In this document: positions 7,576 through 37,145 of the stretch, in pieces
Layout of the letters: every line of letters starts with the position of its first letter
Position numbering within the stretch: position 1 is the first letter of the stretch
Assembly: GCF_000482245.1 (NCBI RefSeq)
Contig: NZ_AWNH01000036.1
Span: 124,001 to 188,000 of the forward strand
Direction of reading: 5' to 3'
DNA: 64,000 nt
From: Leptolyngbya sp. Heron Island J
GTDB lineage: Bacteria; Cyanobacteriota; Cyanobacteriia; Phormidesmidales; Phormidesmidaceae
Notes under the pieces: model-generated
Told to the model about the DNA's origin: nothing
What the model saw: the letters and a program-made list of their open reading frames with translations, nothing else
Databases searched by the model: none
Translations under genes and position numbers: made by a program

Positions 7576-9381
7576 TTGGCTATGGGTTTCTGGCGATTTC
7601 TGACCCGGTCAAAGCGACTGCGGTATATGCTTGTCAGTGTGTTTATCTGTAGCTGGCTTGTCAGTATTGACGTCGGCGCACGGGCGGCAAACAACTGGCA
7701 CCAGCAGCCTTGTGTTAAGGCTCTGAGCCAACGTCAAATCTTGCCGGTCGATAGGGTACGCTACGGGGCTCAACCCATATCACAACAGCAGTTTGCCGCA
7801 GCGGTTTTAAGAGCCTTTCCAGGTAAATTCGCAACGGCTAATCAGGCGTTGGGGTTGACCTTTGAAGGGGCAACTGAAGTGGAGCAGCTGTTGGTGGCTG
7901 CCTTGGGAGATGTCGCCCTGGGGCAGCAGGCGGTGTTGAGATCGCAAGCCCTAGCCATTTTGACCACTGGAGCCGCCCTACCCTACCAAGCAAATGCCAC
8001 CCGCCTGCTAGCCGCAACCTTTCGCGACAGCGCCTTGATTTCTCCCGAAAGCCGTGAAGGCGTGGCCGCCGCCCTGGCCCAGGAGGTGATTCCCAAGGAG
8101 GCGGATTCCCGCTTATTCGGCACCCAGCCCAGTTTGTATCCCAACCGTAGCGAATCCTATGGCATGGCCGCCAAGCTGCTATGTGCCGCCAGTGCTGACC
8201 CAGCCGTGGCGGCTCTGGTGAGCGATCGCATCCAACCGGCTACGGTGTCTCCTGGTCCCATTCCCCAAAACGAAATTCGTGGAGCCTGGCTCACCAATAT
8301 TGACAGCCAGGTCTTGTTTAGTCGAGACAATCTGGAACCAGGGCTACAGCGCCTGGCCGCCCTGAATTTTAATACTGTGTATCCCACGGTTTGGAACTGG
8401 GGGTATACCCTCTATCCCAGTGCCGTAGCCATACGCACCTTTGGCTACCAGCAAGGTCTGTACCCCGACGTAGAAAATACCGGAGAACGAAATGAATCCC
8501 TGGAAGCCGCCCAGGGCGATCGCGATATGCTCCTGGAGCTGATCGAACTGGCCCATCCCCTGGGACTGCGGGTAATCCCCTGGTTTGAGTTTGGGTTTAT
8601 GGCCCCAGCGGACTCAGCCCTGGTCCGGGCCCATCCAGAATGGCTGACCCAAAAGGCCGATGGTACCAAGGTTAAAGCCGAAGGCATTCACGATCGCGTG
8701 TGGCTGAATCCATTTCACCCTGAGGTACAGCAGTTTATCCTCGACCTGGTGAGTGAACTAGCGGCTAACTATCCCATCGACGGCTTTCAGGTGGACGACC
8801 ATTTTGGTTTGCCAGCTGCCTATGGCTACGATCCCTATACCATTAACCTCTATCGCCAGGAGCACAGTGGCCAGGCTCCTCCTAGGGATATCTATGACCC
8901 GGAATGGACTCGCTGGCGGGCCGATAAAATCACTGATGTCATGGGCCGTACCTTTGCCGTTGTTAAGGCGCGACAGTCAACAGCTATTGTGTCGGTCTCT
9001 CCCAATCCCCATGAGTTTGCCTATAAGCACTTTTTGCAAGATTGGCATACCTGGGTTAACCAGGGCTATGTTGAAGAGTTAATTATTCAGCTTTACCGTA
9101 GCGATCTGGGTCGATTTGTGTGGGAAATGAACCGTGAATCAGCCCAAAGCGCTCGTCACCATATTCCAACAGCAGTGGGTGTGCTCAGTGGTCTGCGGGG
9201 GCGACCTGTGGCCATGGATTGGATTCAAGAACAGGTGGCTGCTATTCGCGATCGCAGCTATGCAGGCGTCTCCTTTTTCTTTTACGAATCACTCTGGTGG
9301 TCAGATACCGAGACATTAGAGCAACGTCAGCAATCCCTGCTAGAGCTATTTCCCAACAAAGCAAGAGCTCCCCAGGTGTGA
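7576..9381 (+). CDS. Family-10-like glycosyl hydrolase (GHL10/DUF187) with N-terminal SLH-like region
   Basis: 601 aa secreted enzyme. The N-terminus is basic then hydrophobic (RYMLVSVFICSWLVSIDVGARA, residues about 16-38), a likely signal peptide. Residues about 40-215 resemble degenerate SLH-type modules that could hold it to the cell surface. The catalytic part starts at EIRGAWLTNIDSQVL (about 235) and includes FNTVYPTVWNWGYTLYPS, VIPWFEFGFM and DGFQVDDHFGLP, typical of the GHL10 (DUF187) family of putative glycoside hydrolases; the acidic residues of the last motif are catalytic candidates. Substrate unknown, perhaps envelope polysaccharide. A GGAGG sits 6 nt before the TTG start; the ATG at 7582 is the alternative. 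Last gene of the yciH operon. Confidence 0.88.
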   Translation: MAMGFWRFLTRSKRLRYMLVSVFICSWLVSIDVGARAANNWHQQPCVKALSQRQILPVDRVRYGAQPISQQQFAAAVLRAFPGKFATANQALGLTFEGATEVEQLLVAALGDVALGQQAVLRSQALAILTTGAALPYQANATRLLAATFRDSALISPESREGVAAALAQEVIPKEADSRLFGTQPSLYPNRSESYGMAAKLLCAASADPAVAALVSDRIQPATVSPGPIPQNEIRGAWLTNIDSQVLFSRDNLEPGLQRLAALNFNTVYPTVWNWGYTLYPSAVAIRTFGYQQGLYPDVENTGERNESLEAAQGDRDMLLELIELAHPLGLRVIPWFEFGFMAPADSALVRAHPEWLTQKADGTKVKAEGIHDRVWLNPFHPEVQQFILDLVSELAANYPIDGFQVDDHFGLPAAYGYDPYTINLYRQEHSGQAPPRDIYDPEWTRWRADKITDVMGRTFAVVKARQSTAIVSVSPNPHEFAYKHFLQDWHTWVNQGYVEELIIQLYRSDLGRFVWEMNRESAQSARHHIPTAVGVLSGLRGRPVAMDWIQEQVAAIRDRSYAGVSFFFYESLWWSDTETLEQRQQSLLELFPNKARAPQV

Positions 9382-15833: not shown

Positions 15834-16790
15834 TTAAGAACAAAGTTCATTATGCCAGGCCTGGCGGCCTCGGCCAGAAACACAAGAAAATTGTTGCCCA
15901 ATCCAATCAATCCGCCACTGTTGCCCATCAGCAACAAACTCTAAGCGATAACGCTGGGCAGAGACCGAATCATCCCCCAATCGCTTTTGAGTAACTGCAA
16001 TGACCATCCGCCGCTCACTTCTCGCCAACACTTCAATCATGTGGTCATGGCGTGTTTCCTCATGTGGCTCTGATGTATGACCCAAAATTCTCTGCGTCAA
16101 TACCAGCGGCTCATCCACAGCACCTGCCTTCAAAAAGCGAGAATTCTGCAAATTATAGTCGAAATATTGCTCCCTCTCATCAGGAAACGGAATCTCATCA
16201 AGATTCAACGAAATACGATTTATTTCTTCTAGACCTGCAGCCGTCCAGCGATAGGTAAACGTTTCCTCATTGCCCCATTGTTCTGCAGAGCCTTGAACCA
16301 CAATCTGATTATTGATATGCTTTATTTCATAAATCATGTCAAAGAATACGGTATCGCTATGAACTGGTTGTCCTTGCTGGTTTAATACCGTAGCCAGCGC
16401 CAGGTAGCCGCCGTCGCTAGCGGCATCTTGTTCATCCTGAGGCAGCACCATCAGAGGCACTAAAACATCTTCAAAGCCATCTCCATTCAAGTCATGGTGA
16501 ATCAGTTCAAATTGATTATCCGCCTCATGACTCGGCAGGTAAACCACTGCACCATAGTCAAATCCCTCAGAGTCCATAAATTCCGTAAACGTGATGGTTG
16601 AAGTGACTATCTGATCACGCCCCGGCACATCCAGGTGATATTCTAGCGATCTCAAATTTGATACCGACAATTTCTGGAGACCTACATAGGTCGAATTATC
16701 GTTAGCACCACTACTAGCAACACAGCTCGTCCAGTTAACTAATCCTAATAAAAGGGTGAGTTGAAGTGCATATTTCGAAAAAGCTGCCAT
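15834..16790 (-). CDS. Hypothetical exported protein with FG-GAP-like segment
   Basis: 318 aa. The N-terminus (LQLTLLLGLVNWTSCVAS) is a signal peptide, possibly of lipoprotein type with Cys23, although WTSC is a weak lipobox. The middle has HHDLNGDGFEDVLVPL, a calcium-binding-type DxNxDGxxD motif seen in FG-GAP and related surface proteins. Two Cys near the end (FSCVSG and the terminal Cys) may form a disulfide. No catalytic motif seen. Monocistronic, with 340 bp of repeat-bearing DNA upstream. Confidence 0.65.
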   Translation of the reverse strand: MAAFSKYALQLTLLLGLVNWTSCVASSGANDNSTYVGLQKLSVSNLRSLEYHLDVPGRDQIVTSTITFTEFMDSEGFDYGAVVYLPSHEADNQFELIHHDLNGDGFEDVLVPLMVLPQDEQDAASDGGYLALATVLNQQGQPVHSDTVFFDMIYEIKHINNQIVVQGSAEQWGNEETFTYRWTAAGLEEINRISLNLDEIPFPDEREQYFDYNLQNSRFLKAGAVDEPLVLTQRILGHTSEPHEETRHDHMIEVLARSERRMVIAVTQKRLGDDSVSAQRYRLEFVADGQQWRIDWIGQQFSCVSGRGRQAWHNELCS

Positions 16791-19318: not shown

Positions 19319-20846
19319 AAAGTCTGCGCCAGCGACGACCGACTTTGTTTAGCAAGAACTCAGCCTCGACCGGTTCCCACGTACCTGCTTCATATAAAGG
19401 AATCTGGGCCGGATCTGCCGGACTATCCCAGGCTTCTAGTACCGGCGTTAATACCCGCCAGGACTCTTCTACCTCATCGCCTCGGGTAAACAGGGTTTGA
19501 TCCCCAAGCATAGCGTCTACCAACAAACGGGCATAGGCATCAGTACTGGGTTTGCCAAAGGCCGCATCATAGCGGAAGTCCATGTCCACAGAGCGTGTCC
19601 GCAAAGAACTACCCGGCGTTTTCACTTCAAACCGCATCGAGATCCCTTCATCAGGCTGAATTCGCAGGGCCAGAATATTATCATTCATCTGCTTTGCTGC
19701 CGACTGAAACATCAGGTGGGGCACCTGCTTGAAGTGTACTGAGATTTCCGATACTTTTTTGGGCATCCGTTTACCCGTACGTAAATAGAAGGGCACCCCT
19801 TGCCAACGCCAGTTATCTACCCGCATTTCAATGGCAGCAAACGTATGGATGGTGGACTTTTCCAGTCCTTCTTCTTCTTCACGATAGCCAGGTACCGCCT
19901 TACCCTTCATCCAACCGTTGGTATATTGCCCTCTTACAACACATTGGTCCAAATTCAGGGGGTCTGCCAGCCGTGTCGCCTGCAGTACCTTAACTTTTTC
20001 ATCTCGTACGCTAGAGGCCTCTAGAGAATTGGGTGGCTCCATGGCCGTTAGACAAAATAGCTGCATCAGATGGTTTTGCACCATGTCCCGCAGGGCTCCA
20101 GCGGTTTCATAGTAACCAGCTCGACCTTCTAAACCGACCGTCTCTGCCACCGTGATCTGGACGTGGTCTACAAACTGACGATTCCACAACGGCTCAAAAA
20201 TGGCATTAGCAAATCGAAATACCAGCAGGTTCTGAACGGTTTCTTTACCCAGATAGTGATCAATGCGATAAACCTGCTGTTCCGGAACAGCAGCGCGCAC
20301 CTTTTGGTTCAAAGCCTGGGCTGAGGCTAAGTCACGGCCAAAGGGCTTTTCAATAATTAAGCGCTGTTTGGTTGGATCGGCCAGCATACCCGCCGCTCCC
20401 AGCTGCTGGGTGGCCTCAGCAAAAAAGCGCGGTGCCACCGATAGATAAAACAGCCGATTTCCTCGCGTATAGCGTTTCTCGTCTAACTCGGATAAAAAGG
20501 CTTTGAGCTTCTGGTAGCTTTCCGGTTGATCAATATTGCCCGGACAGTAAAACAACCCAGACGAAAAGTTCTCCCACAGCATCTGGTTATTGATACCGCC
20601 GCCGTAGTCTTCAATTCCTTGCTTCAGATGCTCCCGAAAGAATTCATGACTCCACTCCCGGCGAGACACCCCCACAATGGTTAGCTCCGGAGGCAGTCGC
20701 CGCTCCTGACGCATTTTATACAGGGAGGGCACCAGCTTACGCTGGGTTAGATCCCCGGATGCGCCAAAGATCACTAAGATCTGGGGCTCAGGAATACGAT
20801 CTTGTTGGAGACCAACGCGTAGGGGATTTTCGAGGAGAGAAACCAT
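19317..20846 (-). CDS. zwf: Glucose-6-phosphate 1-dehydrogenase
   Basis: First enzyme of the oxidative pentose phosphate pathway (glucose 6-phosphate to 6-phosphogluconolactone, NADP-dependent). The nucleotide-binding motif is [12 protein letters not shown]. The active site is [21 protein letters not shown], with the catalytic His in DHYLGKE, and FIRTGKRM-like [12 protein letters not shown] follows. I chose the ATG giving [12 protein letters not shown] (509 aa) because AGGAG precedes it by 8 nt; the longer frame to 20921 runs through an interspersed repeat. In cyanobacteria the enzyme is redox-controlled by thioredoxin through OpcA. It follows tal with 99 bp between and precedes opcA. Confidence 0.97.
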
Positions 20847-23243: not shown

Positions 23244-23737
23244 AAAACCTCCATTACCTCTATCAACAAACTGAGGCGAGCGAGGAAGCATCTAGACAGA
23301 TACTCCTACTGCCATGTTAGGAACCCGATCTGAGAAATGAAAAAAATTTTTAGATCAGTTACAGAAACATCCCTAAATCCATAATCTGAATCAATTAGTG
23401 AAGTTTAAACCAGATTAATAAGAACAGATGAGTTTAGGCTGAGCCATATTTTATCTGTCTTAAGCATTTATCCTACAGGCCGATGTTTCTATGACCAAAA
23501 ATAAGTGAATTTACCTAGAAACCATGAGGCTCACCTAAAAACACCTATCTCCACCTAACCCCTATTATAAATCTTGTTACTGCCGTCAGTATTTGCACAG
23601 CTTCAGCTATCAGGGAGTTGTCCAACAAAAACCCGTGTCATTAGGGTTACATTTCAATCATAAGTTAGCTGTGATTAAAAAGGGAAAGTTGTGACTATTG
23701 CAACTTGACTGCGTTCGGCATTAGCATTTTCAACATT
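23244..23737. other. Divergent promoter region between fbp and the haemagglutinin/CHAT gene
   Basis: About 490 bp of A+T-rich DNA without a gene. It must hold both promoters; no operator with clear symmetry was recognised. Confidence 0.45.
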
Positions 23738-26700
23738 ATGGGCCACTCAGGATGGCAACGGCTAAATACTCTGCAGCTAGCAGGTTGCTTAGGTATTTTT
23801 GCTCTGGGGATTGCACCTGCCTGGGGACAAATAACACCGACAGGAGCGACATCAACGACTACAAAAGGTTTTCAGATTCAGGTCACCGATGGTATTCAGT
23901 CAACAGATGAAATCAATCTCTTTCATCAGTTTGAAAACTTTAATGTGCAGCCTGACCAAACAGTCATATTTATGGCTTCAGACCCAGTTCAAAATATTTT
24001 GGGTCAAGTTACAGGTGGGCAAGCATCGATCATTGATGGTGGATTAGCTGTATCCAACAATGCTAACTTGTGGTTACTAAACTCCGCTGGCATCCTGTTT
24101 GGACCCGATGCCCATCTTAATTTGCAGGGAGATTTTACGGCGGCCACGGCTGACGCCATCGGATTTGAGCAAGGCTGGCTAGCAGATGGAGCAAACTATC
24201 AAGCGTTGGTCGGTGCGCCCCAAAGTCTCGCATTTATCTCTAGCCCCGCCCATCTGGTTAATCTGGGAGACTTACAGGTAGACCCTGGCCAGCGTTTAAG
24301 TTTACTAGGCGGCAGCGTCATTAATGCGGGCACCTTAGTGGCTCCTGCCGGCACAATTACTGTTGCTGCGGTGGCAGACAACAGTCGGGTACAGCTAAGT
24401 TTAACCAACCAGATACTAACCTTAGATCTTGAGCCCTGGACCACAAGCGGTTGGGAGACTGACATAACACCCGTGAGCTTGCCTGCTCTGCTCACAGGTA
24501 GCCGCTTTGCAGATGCCAACACGCTTATCCTTGAAACAGACGGTACAGTACGGCTCACCCAAACCGAGACGATTACCCCTGCCGCAGGTCATGTGGCCAT
24601 TACTGGCACTATCAACAGTGCTGGAGATCAGGGTGGACAGATCGCGATTTTAGGAGACCAAACCTCACTTGTTAATGCAGACATCAGGGCTGACGGCATT
24701 AATCAAGGGGGGCAAATTTATGTTGGGGGCAACTACCAGGGCAGAGGTCCACTGCCCAACGCCAGCCAGACGAGGGTGAACTCAGGCTCTGAACTCAGCG
24801 CTAATGCCCTACAGCAAGGTAACGGTGGCCAGATTATTGTTTGGGCCGATGATGTGACTCATTTTAGCGGCAGTGCCTACGCCGAAGGGGGGAGCCTCAA
24901 TGGTAACGGCGGCTTGATCGAGATTTCTGGTAAATCCCACCTGGGGTTTGATGGTCAGTTCTCCCTGAGTGCCCCTCAAGGAGAGTCAGGCTCCATCTTA
25001 TTTGACCCTGATAATATTCGCATTGTCAGTGATGGTACCCCGGCAGAAGTTGCAACAGAATCGCTTTTACTCCCTGATATTAGCGCTATTGATAACGATT
25101 TCGGCACGCTCACCCTCCATGCCAATACCTTAGAAAGCTGGGACGGTGATGACAACATCATCTTCCAGGCTAATACCAATATTGAGATTGATTTGGGTGG
25201 TAATAACGAACTGACATTTCAACCGGGCACGGGCTCCATCACCTTTATCGCCGATGCCAATAACAACTTTATTGGTAGCTTTTTTATGAGCGGTGCTGAT
25301 GATTTGCTGAAAACATCAGGACGAGATATCAATATATCTGGAACAACCATTACCCTCCAGTCCATTGACGCTGATTCGGCAACGGGAGCAGGTGATGTCA
25401 ATCTTACAGCTCCGCTGCTAACCTCCATCGCAGGTAGTTTGAATGCTGAAAATATCACAGTCAGAAGCAATGAACTCAATCTTAATGGAGGTAATAATTC
25501 GATTATTGGCACAACGCTATCCATTGAACCGGATAACCCAGCAACAGCAATTAACCTAGGACCGGGTACCAACACGCTATTTGACTTAGACCTATTAGAA
25601 ACAGATATCTCGGCCCTCAAAGATGGATTTACCCATATTGCCATTGGGCGTTCTGATGGTACGGGGACCATTACCCTCCACGATTCTGTTACCGATAGAG
25701 GGGCAACACCGTTTCAAGATCCCGTGAATATTCTGGGTGCAAACAGTCTGAGGGGACCTGAGCAGGTCACTGACTGGACCGTAACAGCAAATAATCAGGG
25801 CAATCTAGATCGTCTTTTTAGTAACGGTCTGAGTTTTGAAAATGTTGACTCAATTGTTGTCAGCAATGGCACTAACGATACCCTCCAGGGTGCTGATGGG
25901 GATGATATAGCCACGTTCTCAGGGGTTGATGCGGGCACGTTTAACGGCATTAATTTTGCGGGTATTCAAACAATTAATGGGGCAGGAGGTAATGACCAGT
26001 TTATTTTTGGTAATGGCGCGGTTATTAACGGTAGCCTGGATGGTGGCACTGGCAACAATACCCTAGACTACAGTGCCTACATCACCGATATTACTATCGA
26101 CTTAGCCACAGGCAGCGCGCCAGGAACTGGAGGCATTAGCAATATTCACCATGTGATTGCCGGTAGTGGTGCCAACACGCTGCAAGGAACCGCTGCTAAC
26201 GATGTGGTCACTCTAACTGATGTGGGTGCTGGCATCCTGAATGGCACGGCATTTGAAGGGTTTGAAACAATTTTACCGGGAGATGGGGACGATCGTTTTA
26301 TTGTTAATGGTGGCACATGGACTAATTTGGATGGCGGTGCTGGGACTGATACGCTGGACTATAGTGCTAGTGCCGTAGGAGTGACTATTGATGTTGAAAA
26401 TCAGACGGCCAACAATGTTGCTGGTTTTGTTAGTATAGAAGACTTCTGGGGTGGCAATGGGGCTGATATACTACTGGGGACTAGTGGAAATGATGCGATC
26501 GCAATTACTGGAAATAACACCGGCACCTTAAGCAACAAGACATTTGCCAACATTGAAACGGTAGACGCCAGAGCTGGCAACGACACATTTAGCTTAAATA
26601 ATGGCGCATCAGTCACTGGCACCCTGATCGGTGGTGATGGTTTTGATACTGTTGACTACAGTACCTATACCAGTGATATTACTGTTGATCTACAAACTAA

Positions 26701-29353
26701 CAGTACTACCAATATCACCAGTTTTAATACCCTCGAATCCTTTATAGGCGGTAGCGGCAATGATAACTTTAAGCTGGATGGCACCGCCTCTATTGCATCT
26801 ATCGATGGCGGTGCCGGTAATAACACTTTAATTGGCGACAATATTGCCAGTATTTGGCACTTAACAGCTAGCAATACAGGCCATGGTCCAGGCATCGACA
26901 ATTTTATAAATATTCAAAGCCTCGTAGCAGGCAATCAAGCAGATCAAATCAACAGTCTTGCCAACGACGCCGGTTTTACCGGTACTGTAGATGGAGGAAT
27001 GGGTCCACTGACATTTAGAGGCGATCGTATCAATCTGGGTACAGCCATTACAGGCAGCGGCGAACTTATCATTGCACCCAGCTCTACCTCCAGAGATATA
27101 CAACTAGGTGGGGCTGATGTGTCAGCTGCTCTTACCCTCTCCACAACGGAATTGGCCAGCATCTCGGCAGGATTTACAAGCATCACCATTGGCCACGCTG
27201 AGAGCAGCGGTACGATCACCCTGGAAGCCGATGTTACCCTGCCCTCCCCTACTACCCTCTCTTCTCCCCAGGCGGAGGGAAGTATTGACACTCAAGGCTT
27301 TAACCTGAGCGCCCCTGAACTCATACTGTCAGCAGCCCAAGATATCACAACGGCCAGGCTGACGGCTCCAGCTGGCATTAAAATCAACAGCGGTGGTGCC
27401 GTCAGCACTCAAGATATTTTGACCAATACCGCCCTGGATGGGGGTGATCTGGTGATTAATGCGGCGACAACAATTACTACGCAACAGATTGATACAACTG
27501 GTATAACCGGTGTTGGGGGAGATGTTACCCTCCAGTCTGCAGACACGATTCAGGTTCACACCGTTCGCGCTGAGGGTGGGCCTGCAGGCGGTAATGTCGA
27601 TATTACCACTGATCAATTTTTCCGAGCTCTCCATAGTTTTACTAATTTAGACGGTTACAACGCTAGCATTTCTACTGCTGCCACCAACGGTACAGGAGCG
27701 ATTACTATTCGCCACGGCGGCAACAGCACTGTTCCCTTTCAAGTTGTTGATAGTAGTGTCCTGGGCAGTACTGCTGGCCTTGCCAGCGGAGACTTTTACA
27801 TCCCGGCAGAAAATTTTTTTCTAAATAGCTACACGCTAGGTAACATTGCGCTGCTGACCCAGGATATCATTGCTCCGCCAAGCGTTACTCCACCACCGAC
27901 CGCTACCTCGCCTATAATTTCTAACCCACCAACTGCTGCCCTCCCAGCTGTGGTTATTAATCCGTCTGTAGGGACAGACGTGCCAGCAGTTGGGCATATC
28001 CGGTTACCGCTGCTTGGCAGTCATAGCCATTCCCTGGATGAATCAGGCGCTTTAGCCGGTACTAATCATGACAATAGCACTCTATTTGAGCAGTTAGAAA
28101 ACTCTTTTTCAGACCAGTTTAAGTCTCATTTAAATTTATACGAACGGGTGAGTATCTCATCCGTTAGTTTAGCCTCAGCGACAAAAATTCTGGAGGATGT
28201 CGAAGACGTTATGGGGATAAAGCCGGGTGTCTTATATGTATACTTTTTAGTGCCAGATCAAGCAGAAACCGCCCTGCCAGAAGCTAATGAACTCAATCCT
28301 GAGGATGAGCTAGGACTACTGTTGCTAACCCCTACAGGTGAAACTATCCGACGTAAAGTTGAGGGGGTTACCCGTAGTGAGGTCATGGCAGTAGCTGAGG
28401 CTTTTTACACCCAGGTGACCAATTCCATATCTGCTCCCTCCCAATATCTCCCGCTTGCCCAACAGCTTTACACCTGGTTAATCACTCCCGTCGAAGCTGA
28501 ATTACAGCAATACGGCATCAATAGCTTAGCCTTAGCCATGGACACCGGCTTACGTACACTTCCGGTTGCTGCTCTCCACAATGGCACCGAGTATTTAGTT
28601 GAACGGTATAGTTTAGGAGTCATTCCTAGCCTTAGTTTGACCGATTTTGCACCAGATAAGTTTCTCTACAGCCAGCTAGAAAGTACACAGCTACTGGCCA
28701 TGGGAGCTTCTCAGTTTCCATCACAGCGGATTCTACCAGCTGTGCCTGAAGAACTCAAAGTTGTCACCCAAGCATTTGATGATAGTAAGGTTTTTCTCAA
28801 TGAGAGATTTACTCTGGGTAATTTGCGATCGCAAATTACCCAGAGTAACTATGGAATTATCCACTTAGCCAGCCATGGAGTATTTGAGCCCGGCGAACCC
28901 GACAATTCATACATTCAACTTTGGGACCAGCCGCTCCAGCTTGATCAGGTGCATCGGTTAGGCCTACAAGACGCCAATATTGCCCTGATGGTATTAAGCG
29001 CTTGCAATACCGCCCTGGGCGATCGTGAGGCCGAGTACGGCTTTGCTGGGCTAGCGGTTAATGCTGGGGTTCAAACATCCGTTGCTAGCCTTTGGCCCAT
29101 TAGCGATGAAGGTACCCTGGGGTTAATGACCTACTTTTATCAACACTTACAGCAACAGTCGGTACGCGCAACAGCTCTGCGTCAGGCTCAGCTAGCCATG
29201 CTACAAGGCGATCTCCAGTTTGCAAACGGCACTCTCTATGGGACTGATGGGCAAGTTCTAGCCCATTTTCCAGAGCTGGAAAACCACGGACGTTGGAACT
29301 TTACACATCCCTTTTACTGGTCTACTTATACTTTGGTCGGCAGTCCTTGGTAA
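23738..29353 (+). CDS. TPS/filamentous-haemagglutinin exoprotein with C-terminal CHAT protease domain
   Basis: 1871 aa from the ATG at 23738 (a TTG at 23705 is in frame). A signal peptide ending GIAPAWGQ is followed by the two-partner-secretion domain (about 30-150: FNVQPDQTVIFMASDP, ANLWLLNSAGILFGPDA). A long beta-helical region comes next, with calcium-type Gly/Asp/Asn repeats (GADGDDIATF, GAGGNDQFIFGNG, LDGGTGNNTLDYS) at about 700-1080. A Pro/Thr linker leads to a CHAT domain in the last 400 residues. The CHAT dyad is intact: His1713 in HLASHG and Cys1756 in LSACNTA. The protein should be exported through an outer-membrane TpsB pore, but no such gene is in the window. Joining an adhesin-like stalk to a caspase-like peptidase suggests a surface protein that cleaves itself or a target. 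Confidence 0.9.
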   Translation: MGHSGWQRLNTLQLAGCLGIFALGIAPAWGQITPTGATSTTTKGFQIQVTDGIQSTDEINLFHQFENFNVQPDQTVIFMASDPVQNILGQVTGGQASIIDGGLAVSNNANLWLLNSAGILFGPDAHLNLQGDFTAATADAIGFEQGWLADGANYQALVGAPQSLAFISSPAHLVNLGDLQVDPGQRLSLLGGSVINAGTLVAPAGTITVAAVADNSRVQLSLTNQILTLDLEPWTTSGWETDITPVSLPALLTGSRFADANTLILETDGTVRLTQTETITPAAGHVAITGTINSAGDQGGQIAILGDQTSLVNADIRADGINQGGQIYVGGNYQGRGPLPNASQTRVNSGSELSANALQQGNGGQIIVWADDVTHFSGSAYAEGGSLNGNGGLIEISGKSHLGFDGQFSLSAPQGESGSILFDPDNIRIVSDGTPAEVATESLLLPDISAIDNDFGTLTLHANTLESWDGDDNIIFQANTNIEIDLGGNNELTFQPGTGSITFIADANNNFIGSFFMSGADDLLKTSGRDINISGTTITLQSIDADSATGAGDVNLTAPLLTSIAGSLNAENITVRSNELNLNGGNNSIIGTTLSIEPDNPATAINLGPGTNTLFDLDLLETDISALKDGFTHIAIGRSDGTGTITLHDSVTDRGATPFQDPVNILGANSLRGPEQVTDWTVTANNQGNLDRLFSNGLSFENVDSIVVSNGTNDTLQGADGDDIATFSGVDAGTFNGINFAGIQTINGAGGNDQFIFGNGAVINGSLDGGTGNNTLDYSAYITDITIDLATGSAPGTGGISNIHHVIAGSGANTLQGTAANDVVTLTDVGAGILNGTAFEGFETILPGDGDDRFIVNGGTWTNLDGGAGTDTLDYSASAVGVTIDVENQTANNVAGFVSIEDFWGGNGADILLGTSGNDAIAITGNNTGTLSNKTFANIETVDARAGNDTFSLNNGASVTGTLIGGDGFDTVDYSTYTSDITVDLQTNSTTNITSFNTLESFIGGSGNDNFKLDGTASIASIDGGAGNNTLIGDNIASIWHLTASNTGHGPGIDNFINIQSLVAGNQADQINSLANDAGFTGTVDGGMGPLTFRGDRINLGTAITGSGELIIAPSSTSRDIQLGGADVSAALTLSTTELASISAGFTSITIGHAESSGTITLEADVTLPSPTTLSSPQAEGSIDTQGFNLSAPELILSAAQDITTARLTAPAGIKINSGGAVSTQDILTNTALDGGDLVINAATTITTQQIDTTGITGVGGDVTLQSADTIQVHTVRAEGGPAGGNVDITTDQFFRALHSFTNLDGYNASISTAATNGTGAITIRHGGNSTVPFQVVDSSVLGSTAGLASGDFYIPAENFFLNSYTLGNIALLTQDIIAPPSVTPPPTATSPIISNPPTAALPAVVINPSVGTDVPAVGHIRLPLLGSHSHSLDESGALAGTNHDNSTLFEQLENSFSDQFKSHLNLYERVSISSVSLASATKILEDVEDVMGIKPGVLYVYFLVPDQAETALPEANELNPEDELGLLLLTPTGETIRRKVEGVTRSEVMAVAEAFYTQVTNSISAPSQYLPLAQQLYTWLITPVEAELQQYGINSLALAMDTGLRTLPVAALHNGTEYLVERYSLGVIPSLSLTDFAPDKFLYSQLESTQLLAMGASQFPSQRILPAVPEELKVVTQAFDDSKVFLNERFTLGNLRSQITQSNYGIIHLASHGVFEPGEPDNSYIQLWDQPLQLDQVHRLGLQDANIALMVLSACNTALGDREAEYGFAGLAVNAGVQTSVASLWPISDEGTLGLMTYFYQHLQQQSVRATALRQAQLAMLQGDLQFANGTLYGTDGQVLAHFPELENHGRWNFTHPFYWSTYTLVGSPW
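28809..28848. repeat. Perfect 40-bp palindrome within the CHAT coding region
   Basis: The two 20-nt halves (28809-28828 and 28829-28848) are exactly complementary with no spacer; the centre is the HIP1 octamer GCGATCGC. It encodes TLGNLRSQITQS in frame. Confidence 0.95.
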
Positions 29354-36906: not shown

Positions 36907-37032
36907 GCTCATTTTAAGGTGGGGTAGTCGATGTATCGACGTTCTCCAATCGAAAATGAGCACAATTTTCAATGGAACCGTCATAGTGGAATATTCACTA
37001 ACGGGGTTGGAAGCAGGGGTATACCCCTGCTT
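36907..37032. promoter_or_regulatory. Structured leader upstream of hisC: nested hairpin and 22-bp palindrome
   Basis: Outer arms GCTCATTTT (36907-36915) and AAAATGAGC (36953-36961) enclose an inner hairpin GTCGAT/ATCGAC (36927-36932 and 36935-36940). Then comes a perfect 22-bp palindrome at 37011-37032 (core GGGGTATACCCC). No His-codon-rich leader peptide is obvious, so this looks like an operator or RNA element, not classical his attenuation. Confidence 0.6.
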
Positions 37033-37145
37033 GCGATCGCAAACTGGTCCAGACAATATTTCCCAAGTATTGTTGAATCTCGTAATTAATCCGATCAGCA
37101 ACAGCTATCCTAAAATAGGCTCACGCTGCACGTTCTAAATTTTCC

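Follow-up and report, generated by a model that had tools for sequence, protein, structure and literature searches.

A perfect 40-bp palindrome in a cyanobacterial CHAT-domain gene, probably a scar of template switching

Most work on template switching treats it as a rare mutation in reporters, and Rickettsia palindromic elements and REP elements are repeated insertions, some of them located inside open reading frames. In E. coli, template switching makes quasipalindromes perfect, as in lacZ, thyA and rpsL (PMC7202029), and in coding genes of yeast it alters up to five neighbouring residues (PMC8604942). The mitochondrial coding sequences of Nematomorpha carry palindromes of up to 284 bp without known function, for which template switching has been proposed (PMC6649704). 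Cyanobacteria have HIP1 (GCGATCGC), an overrepresented word of 8 bp that is sometimes slightly extended (PMC4390886).

The locus described here lies in Leptolyngbya sp. Heron Island J, in a stretch of 64,000 nucleotides that was analysed as a whole (the window), within a gene encoding a TPS-CHAT protein. Its features are as follows.

23705..29353, + strand: host gene, encoding the TPS-CHAT protein of 1882 aa
23828..24412, + strand: TPS secretion domain (PF05860)
28451..29344, + strand: CHAT domain (PF12770) at the C-terminus, Pfam E 2.5e-67
28809..28848, no strand: perfect spacerless 40-bp palindrome
28809..28828, + strand: left arm, FTLGNLR, coding the FTLxNL motif common to orthologues
28825..28832, no strand: HIP1 octamer at the axis, the likely seed, absent in 6/6 orthologues
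28829..28848, + strand: right arm, SQITQSN, standing where four orthologues have a conserved A-[RH]-N
28874..28876, + strand: presumed catalytic His codon, motif HLASHG
29003..29005, + strand: presumed catalytic Cys codon, motif SACNT, invariant in 14 relatives

The catalytic roles of the HLASHG His and the SACNT Cys are presumed from family knowledge, and both motifs are intact in the host protein. Window positions 28809-28848 (TTACTCTGGGTAATTTGCGATCGCAAATTACCCAGAGTAA) match their own reverse complement exactly over 40 bp, with no mismatch, no spacer and HIP1 at the centre, as the preliminary description had stated. This is the longest palindrome of the window (the runners-up have 22, 20 and 18 bp), and its occurrence by chance is, again as proposed, not expected: for an arm of 20 the expectation (64000 x 4^-20) is about 6e-8 per window and about 7e-6 per 8.06-Mb genome, and no equal arose in 20 replicates of a synonymous codon shuffle over 0.94 Mb of coding DNA. 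The axis falls between the codons CGA and TCG, in frame with the ORF at 23705-29353, and the codons of one arm are thus the reverse complements of those of the other. A pattern search of the 8.06-Mb genome allowing up to 3 mismatches returned this single locus. The instability in bacteria that the preliminary description attached to such a palindrome applies mainly to much longer ones, E. coli work having used 460 bp (PMC4245961).

Comparison was made with six orthologues of the same genus (60-75% amino acid identity, including those of Adonisia turfae CCMR0081 and Leptolyngbya sp. PCC 7375). All six have neither the palindrome nor the HIP1 octamer, and all have identical length at the site in an ungapped alignment; the sequence is FTLGNLRSQITQSN here and FTLNNLQTQVARNQ in both CCMR0081 and PCC 7375. 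Arm pairing is 20/20 here versus 6-9/20 in the five distinct orthologous sequences counted, which are weak quasi-palindromes (for example a core AATTTG-N6-CAAGTT in L052, without HIP1). At sites invariant in four orthologues, lineage-specific changes number 6 of 24 in the palindrome versus 59 of 755 over a 484-aa stretch. All six serve arm pairing, as they necessarily do when a palindrome is perfect, and the 20-nt windows richest in such changes between 28000 and 29350 start at 28826-28827, that is, in the right arm. The DNA alignment suggested in the preliminary description has therefore found symmetry that is not conserved and no codon constraint; absence from orthologues of the same length, together with the single genomic locus, argues against a mobile repeat and a conserved binding site as well. 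From these alignments, the palindrome is firmly read as derived and made in place, without insertion. Because both arms have changed (5-8 mismatches to the orthologues in the left, 7-11 in the right) and the orthologues are about 25% diverged, neither the copying direction nor a single event is proven at this site, and since the right arm is not unusually rich in mismatches to the nearest orthologue (20% of windows have as many), the site alone does not tell which arm was copied.

The palindrome was also described as lying in frame, 26 bp before the catalytic His codon, in a conserved part of the CHAT domain; frame and distance are correct, but the stretch coded by the right arm is variable among relatives (FTLxNLxxQxxxx). 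In a predicted structure (pLDDT 86-91 across the relevant blocks), the recoded residues fall in helix 142-151 of the modelled segment, just ahead of the strand running to the catalytic His. The variability of this helix among relatives would explain why the residue changes in the rewritten arm are tolerated.

Similar palindromes are found elsewhere in the genome. A scan of 1.23 Mb (about 15% of the genome, with genes called by ORF heuristics) revealed 17 perfect palindromes of at least 24 bp, most of them outside long ORFs. In 807 non-overlapping ORFs (0.94 Mb), with the synonymous codon shuffle as null, palindromes with arms of at least 10 (20 bp or more) numbered 10 versus 0.85 expected, and with arms of at least 12, 5 versus 0.05. 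Among the ten, those of L132 and L106 share one sequence near the ORF start and may be repeats lying ahead of the true start, and the L071 palindrome falls at the extreme end of its ORF; the safe intragenic count is therefore somewhat below 10. The excess is nearly all-or-none: 5 observed versus 0.0 under the null for 12 of 12 pairs, 5 versus 2.6 for 11 of 12, and 43 versus 38 for 10 of 12, which fits copying as expected and not gradual selection. With arms of 20, a handful of sites having 16-17 of 20 pairs exceed the null (5 versus 0.8). The comparators were 50 kb of E. coli and two HIP1-rich cyanobacterial genomes of the same class (G056 and G058, 400 kb each, at 2-3x the HIP1 density); in the latter two, no excess of coding palindromes was found. 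PCC 7375 has a similar overall abundance of palindromes, with a weaker coding signal (5 versus 1.0 at arms of at least 9).

Both this genome and PCC 7375 have a dispersed, mostly intergenic family of palindromes of up to 54 bp, with the core TAGGGGCGTTSCATGSAACGCCCCTA or ACGTTGCATGCAACGT, to which several of the 17 found here belong. The outer arms of the TAGGGGCGTTSCATGSAACGCCCCTA family vary from copy to copy yet remain perfectly paired.

L107:17677-17730, L068:14963-15006, L112:18129-18166, L132:12221-12260: palindromes with the TAGGGGCGTTSCATGSAACGCCCCTA or ACGTTGCATGCAACGT core
L092:3191-3236, 7670-7709 and 16463-16502: further copies

Several of the coding palindromes could be compared with orthologues. 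The clearest sister case, judged from the alignments, is L076:3450-3473, in a gene that reads as coxB-like. The orthologues have ACGCTGCTGCTC-AAATCTGAAGAT and this genome has GTCTTCAGACTT-AAGTCTGAAGAC, with no indel. Relative to the two closest orthologues, 2 of 12 positions of the right arm have changed and 9 of 12 of the left, which is now the reverse complement of the right; one arm is thus conserved and the other overwritten. Overwriting is clear at this locus and apparently partial at two others. L071:7421-7460 is perfect here and a quasi-palindrome (14/20 and 16/20 pairs) in two relatives of 94-95% identity, and in the 20-bp palindrome L115:13984-14003 the left arm is more conserved (4-6/10 mismatches) and the right mostly replaced (8/10). 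At L124 the outer left arm CCCCTGGC is kept, as judged against one orthologue only, with similar mismatches in the two arms (2 versus 3). The HIP1-centred palindrome of L104 has been extended from a core of some 10-14 bp that the orthologues share, the arm comparison for the palindrome at window positions 20274-20293 is ambiguous, and for L126 (28 bp) no orthologue in the genus was found at the DNA level.

The CHAT palindrome is thus probably best explained as the mutational scar of template switching, in a lineage where such events arise or persist with unusual frequency, and not as a functional element. Of the origins offered in the preliminary description, a trace of sequence conversion is supported by relatives without the symmetry, the lack of an indel, and sister palindromes in which one arm has been replaced by the inverse of its partner. 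In replication or repair, a nascent strand whose 3' end lies in a short self-complementary stretch (the HIP1 octamer within TTGCGATCGCAA in this case) would anneal to itself or to the opposite strand and copy the arm already made. On return to the correct template, one arm would be the exact reverse complement of the other, at unchanged length. Various small spacerless palindromes, HIP1 included, seem to serve as seeds. For the CHAT site we infer how the polymerase proceeded, which strand and seed it used, and how many events took place; the orthologous sites being weak quasi-palindromes, a copied tract of 20 nt would require more than the mending of a few mismatches.

The spacing of inverted repeats in the coding sample bears on the route taken. 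Where a small palindrome prompts a switch to the opposite strand, no spacer should result, and spacerless repeats number 10 versus 0.6 expected; with arms of at least 10, spacers of 8-15 are about four-fold in excess (23 versus 5.6). For spacers of 3-7, which make the best hairpin loops, no excess was found at arms of at least 9 and little at arms of at least 10, as opposed to the excess predicted by a simple intramolecular hairpin slip. On these small counts, the profile leans toward the opposite strand. Loss of SbcCD as the cause was rejected, an SbcC-like gene being present (476.3 bits, just under the curated cut-off of 478.5). In E. coli, the product of the SbcC-like gene acts on palindromes; the L115 palindrome sits in the SbcC-like gene itself. 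The C-terminal domain of exonuclease I was not found in the genome, which is uninformative since E. coli alone has it among 14 control genomes.

It was also suggested that the palindrome is HIP1-directed, that is, that the process that makes HIP1 also turns the flanking DNA into a palindrome. Against a null of re-paired flanks, HIP1-centred palindromes with at least 6 extra pairs were in excess (5 versus 0.65), but the excess is equally strong at other centres (24 versus 1.8 at arms of at least 10, intergenic repeats included). Most of the excess palindromes are centred on CCTAGG, CTTAAG, GCTAGC or CAGCTG, and the HIP1-rich G056 and G058 show none, making a process directed by HIP1 unlikely. 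Other observations were made on HIP1. The 16-bp core of the CHAT palindrome (ATTTGCGATCGCAAAT) recurs at L110:1848-1861 and L114:8129-8142, in unrelated genes that read as response-regulator-like and glycosyltransferase-like, respectively. Extension of HIP1 to TTTGCGATCGCAAA occurs at only 4 of 618 HIP1 sites, and at window positions 37011-37042 a 22-bp perfect palindrome, AAGCAGGGGTATACCCCTGCTT, abuts a 12-bp HIP1 palindrome, TTGCGATCGCAA.

Selection for the palindrome itself, as a site bound by a dimeric protein or as a regulatory mRNA hairpin in the CHAT gene, seems a shade less credible still. The predicted hairpin is very stable (MFE -38.3 kcal/mol and z -6.6 as RNA, z -8.6 as single-stranded DNA), which speaks for such an element and agrees with the strong mRNA hairpin that had been foreseen. 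Against it, no orthologue has the symmetry, the genome holds no second copy within 3 mismatches, palindromes of like size in unrelated genes differ in sequence, and near-perfect forms show little excess. A recurrent protein-binding site is accordingly improbable, and because the palindrome is not conserved there appears to be no case for a function of the hairpin, on which no sign of selection is seen.

An artefact, in which a chimeric inverted read or a hairpin in the assembly or library wrote one arm over the other, is of similarly low or slightly lower probability. The assembly does consist of 119 contigs, but the site is on one of 197 kb, and its frame, length and two flanks match the orthologues exactly. 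The independent assembly of the genus-mate PCC 7375 (G004) has similar palindromes, and two independent assemblies show a near-palindrome at L071. That a small mobile palindromic element (of the Rickettsia RPE type, a REP/MITE, or a cyanobacterial small dispersed repeat, SDR, entering HIP1) was inserted can practically be set aside, for although the genus has the TAGGGGCGTTSCATGSAACGCCCCTA family and SDR5 elements insert into HIP1 according to a citation in PMC4390886, the orthologues are equal in length with a homologous left arm, their ungapped alignment refutes an insertion, and the 3-mismatch search, returning the CHAT site only, refutes a dispersed repeat.

The mechanism proposed for the CHAT scar is already known, and what is new is its apparent frequency in the genus; in the open-licence literature, no report of such coding palindromes in cyanobacteria was found. 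Frequent template switching at the level of the genus is put forward as a lead. Conceivably, though this is tentative, the genus of Adonisia turfae and Leptolyngbya PCC 7375 has an unusually active inverse copying by which genes acquire perfect spacerless palindromes of 20-40 bp and proteins are remodelled several residues at once, a bacterial counterpart of the nematomorph palindromes and possibly a lineage-specific trait of replication or repair. The roughly ten-fold excess of perfect genic palindromes missing from orthologues would then be a natural record of template switching, one that may reveal the seeds, the length of the copied tract, the tolerance of proteins to simultaneous changes and the repair function that sets the rate. 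Caution is also warranted where several residues differ in such genes, for the changes may have arisen in a single mutation and need not reflect selection.

In comparison with the described systems, the CHAT palindrome shares with HIP1 (PMC4390886) its axis, which is a HIP1 site, but the octamer leaves the outer 16 pairs, and the palindromes that lack HIP1, unexplained. Like Rickettsia palindromic and REP elements it is palindromic and within an ORF; unlike them it is unique and adds no bases. It resembles quasipalindrome template-switch mutation (PMC7202029, PMC8604942) in that one arm would template the other with length kept, and in its perfect symmetry and clustered multinucleotide changes in coding DNA. 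Described template switches mostly mend few mismatches, whereas the CHAT orthologues pair at only 6-9 of 20 positions, pointing to a longer tract or several events. As in the mitochondria of Nematomorpha (PMC6649704), perfect inverted repeats lie within genes and are either perfect or absent, and the nematomorph palindromes are likewise gained and lost between species. Those reach 284 bp, whereas here they are 18-40 bp and in a bacterial chromosome; the phenomenon most resembles the nematomorph mitochondrial coding palindromes, on a smaller scale.
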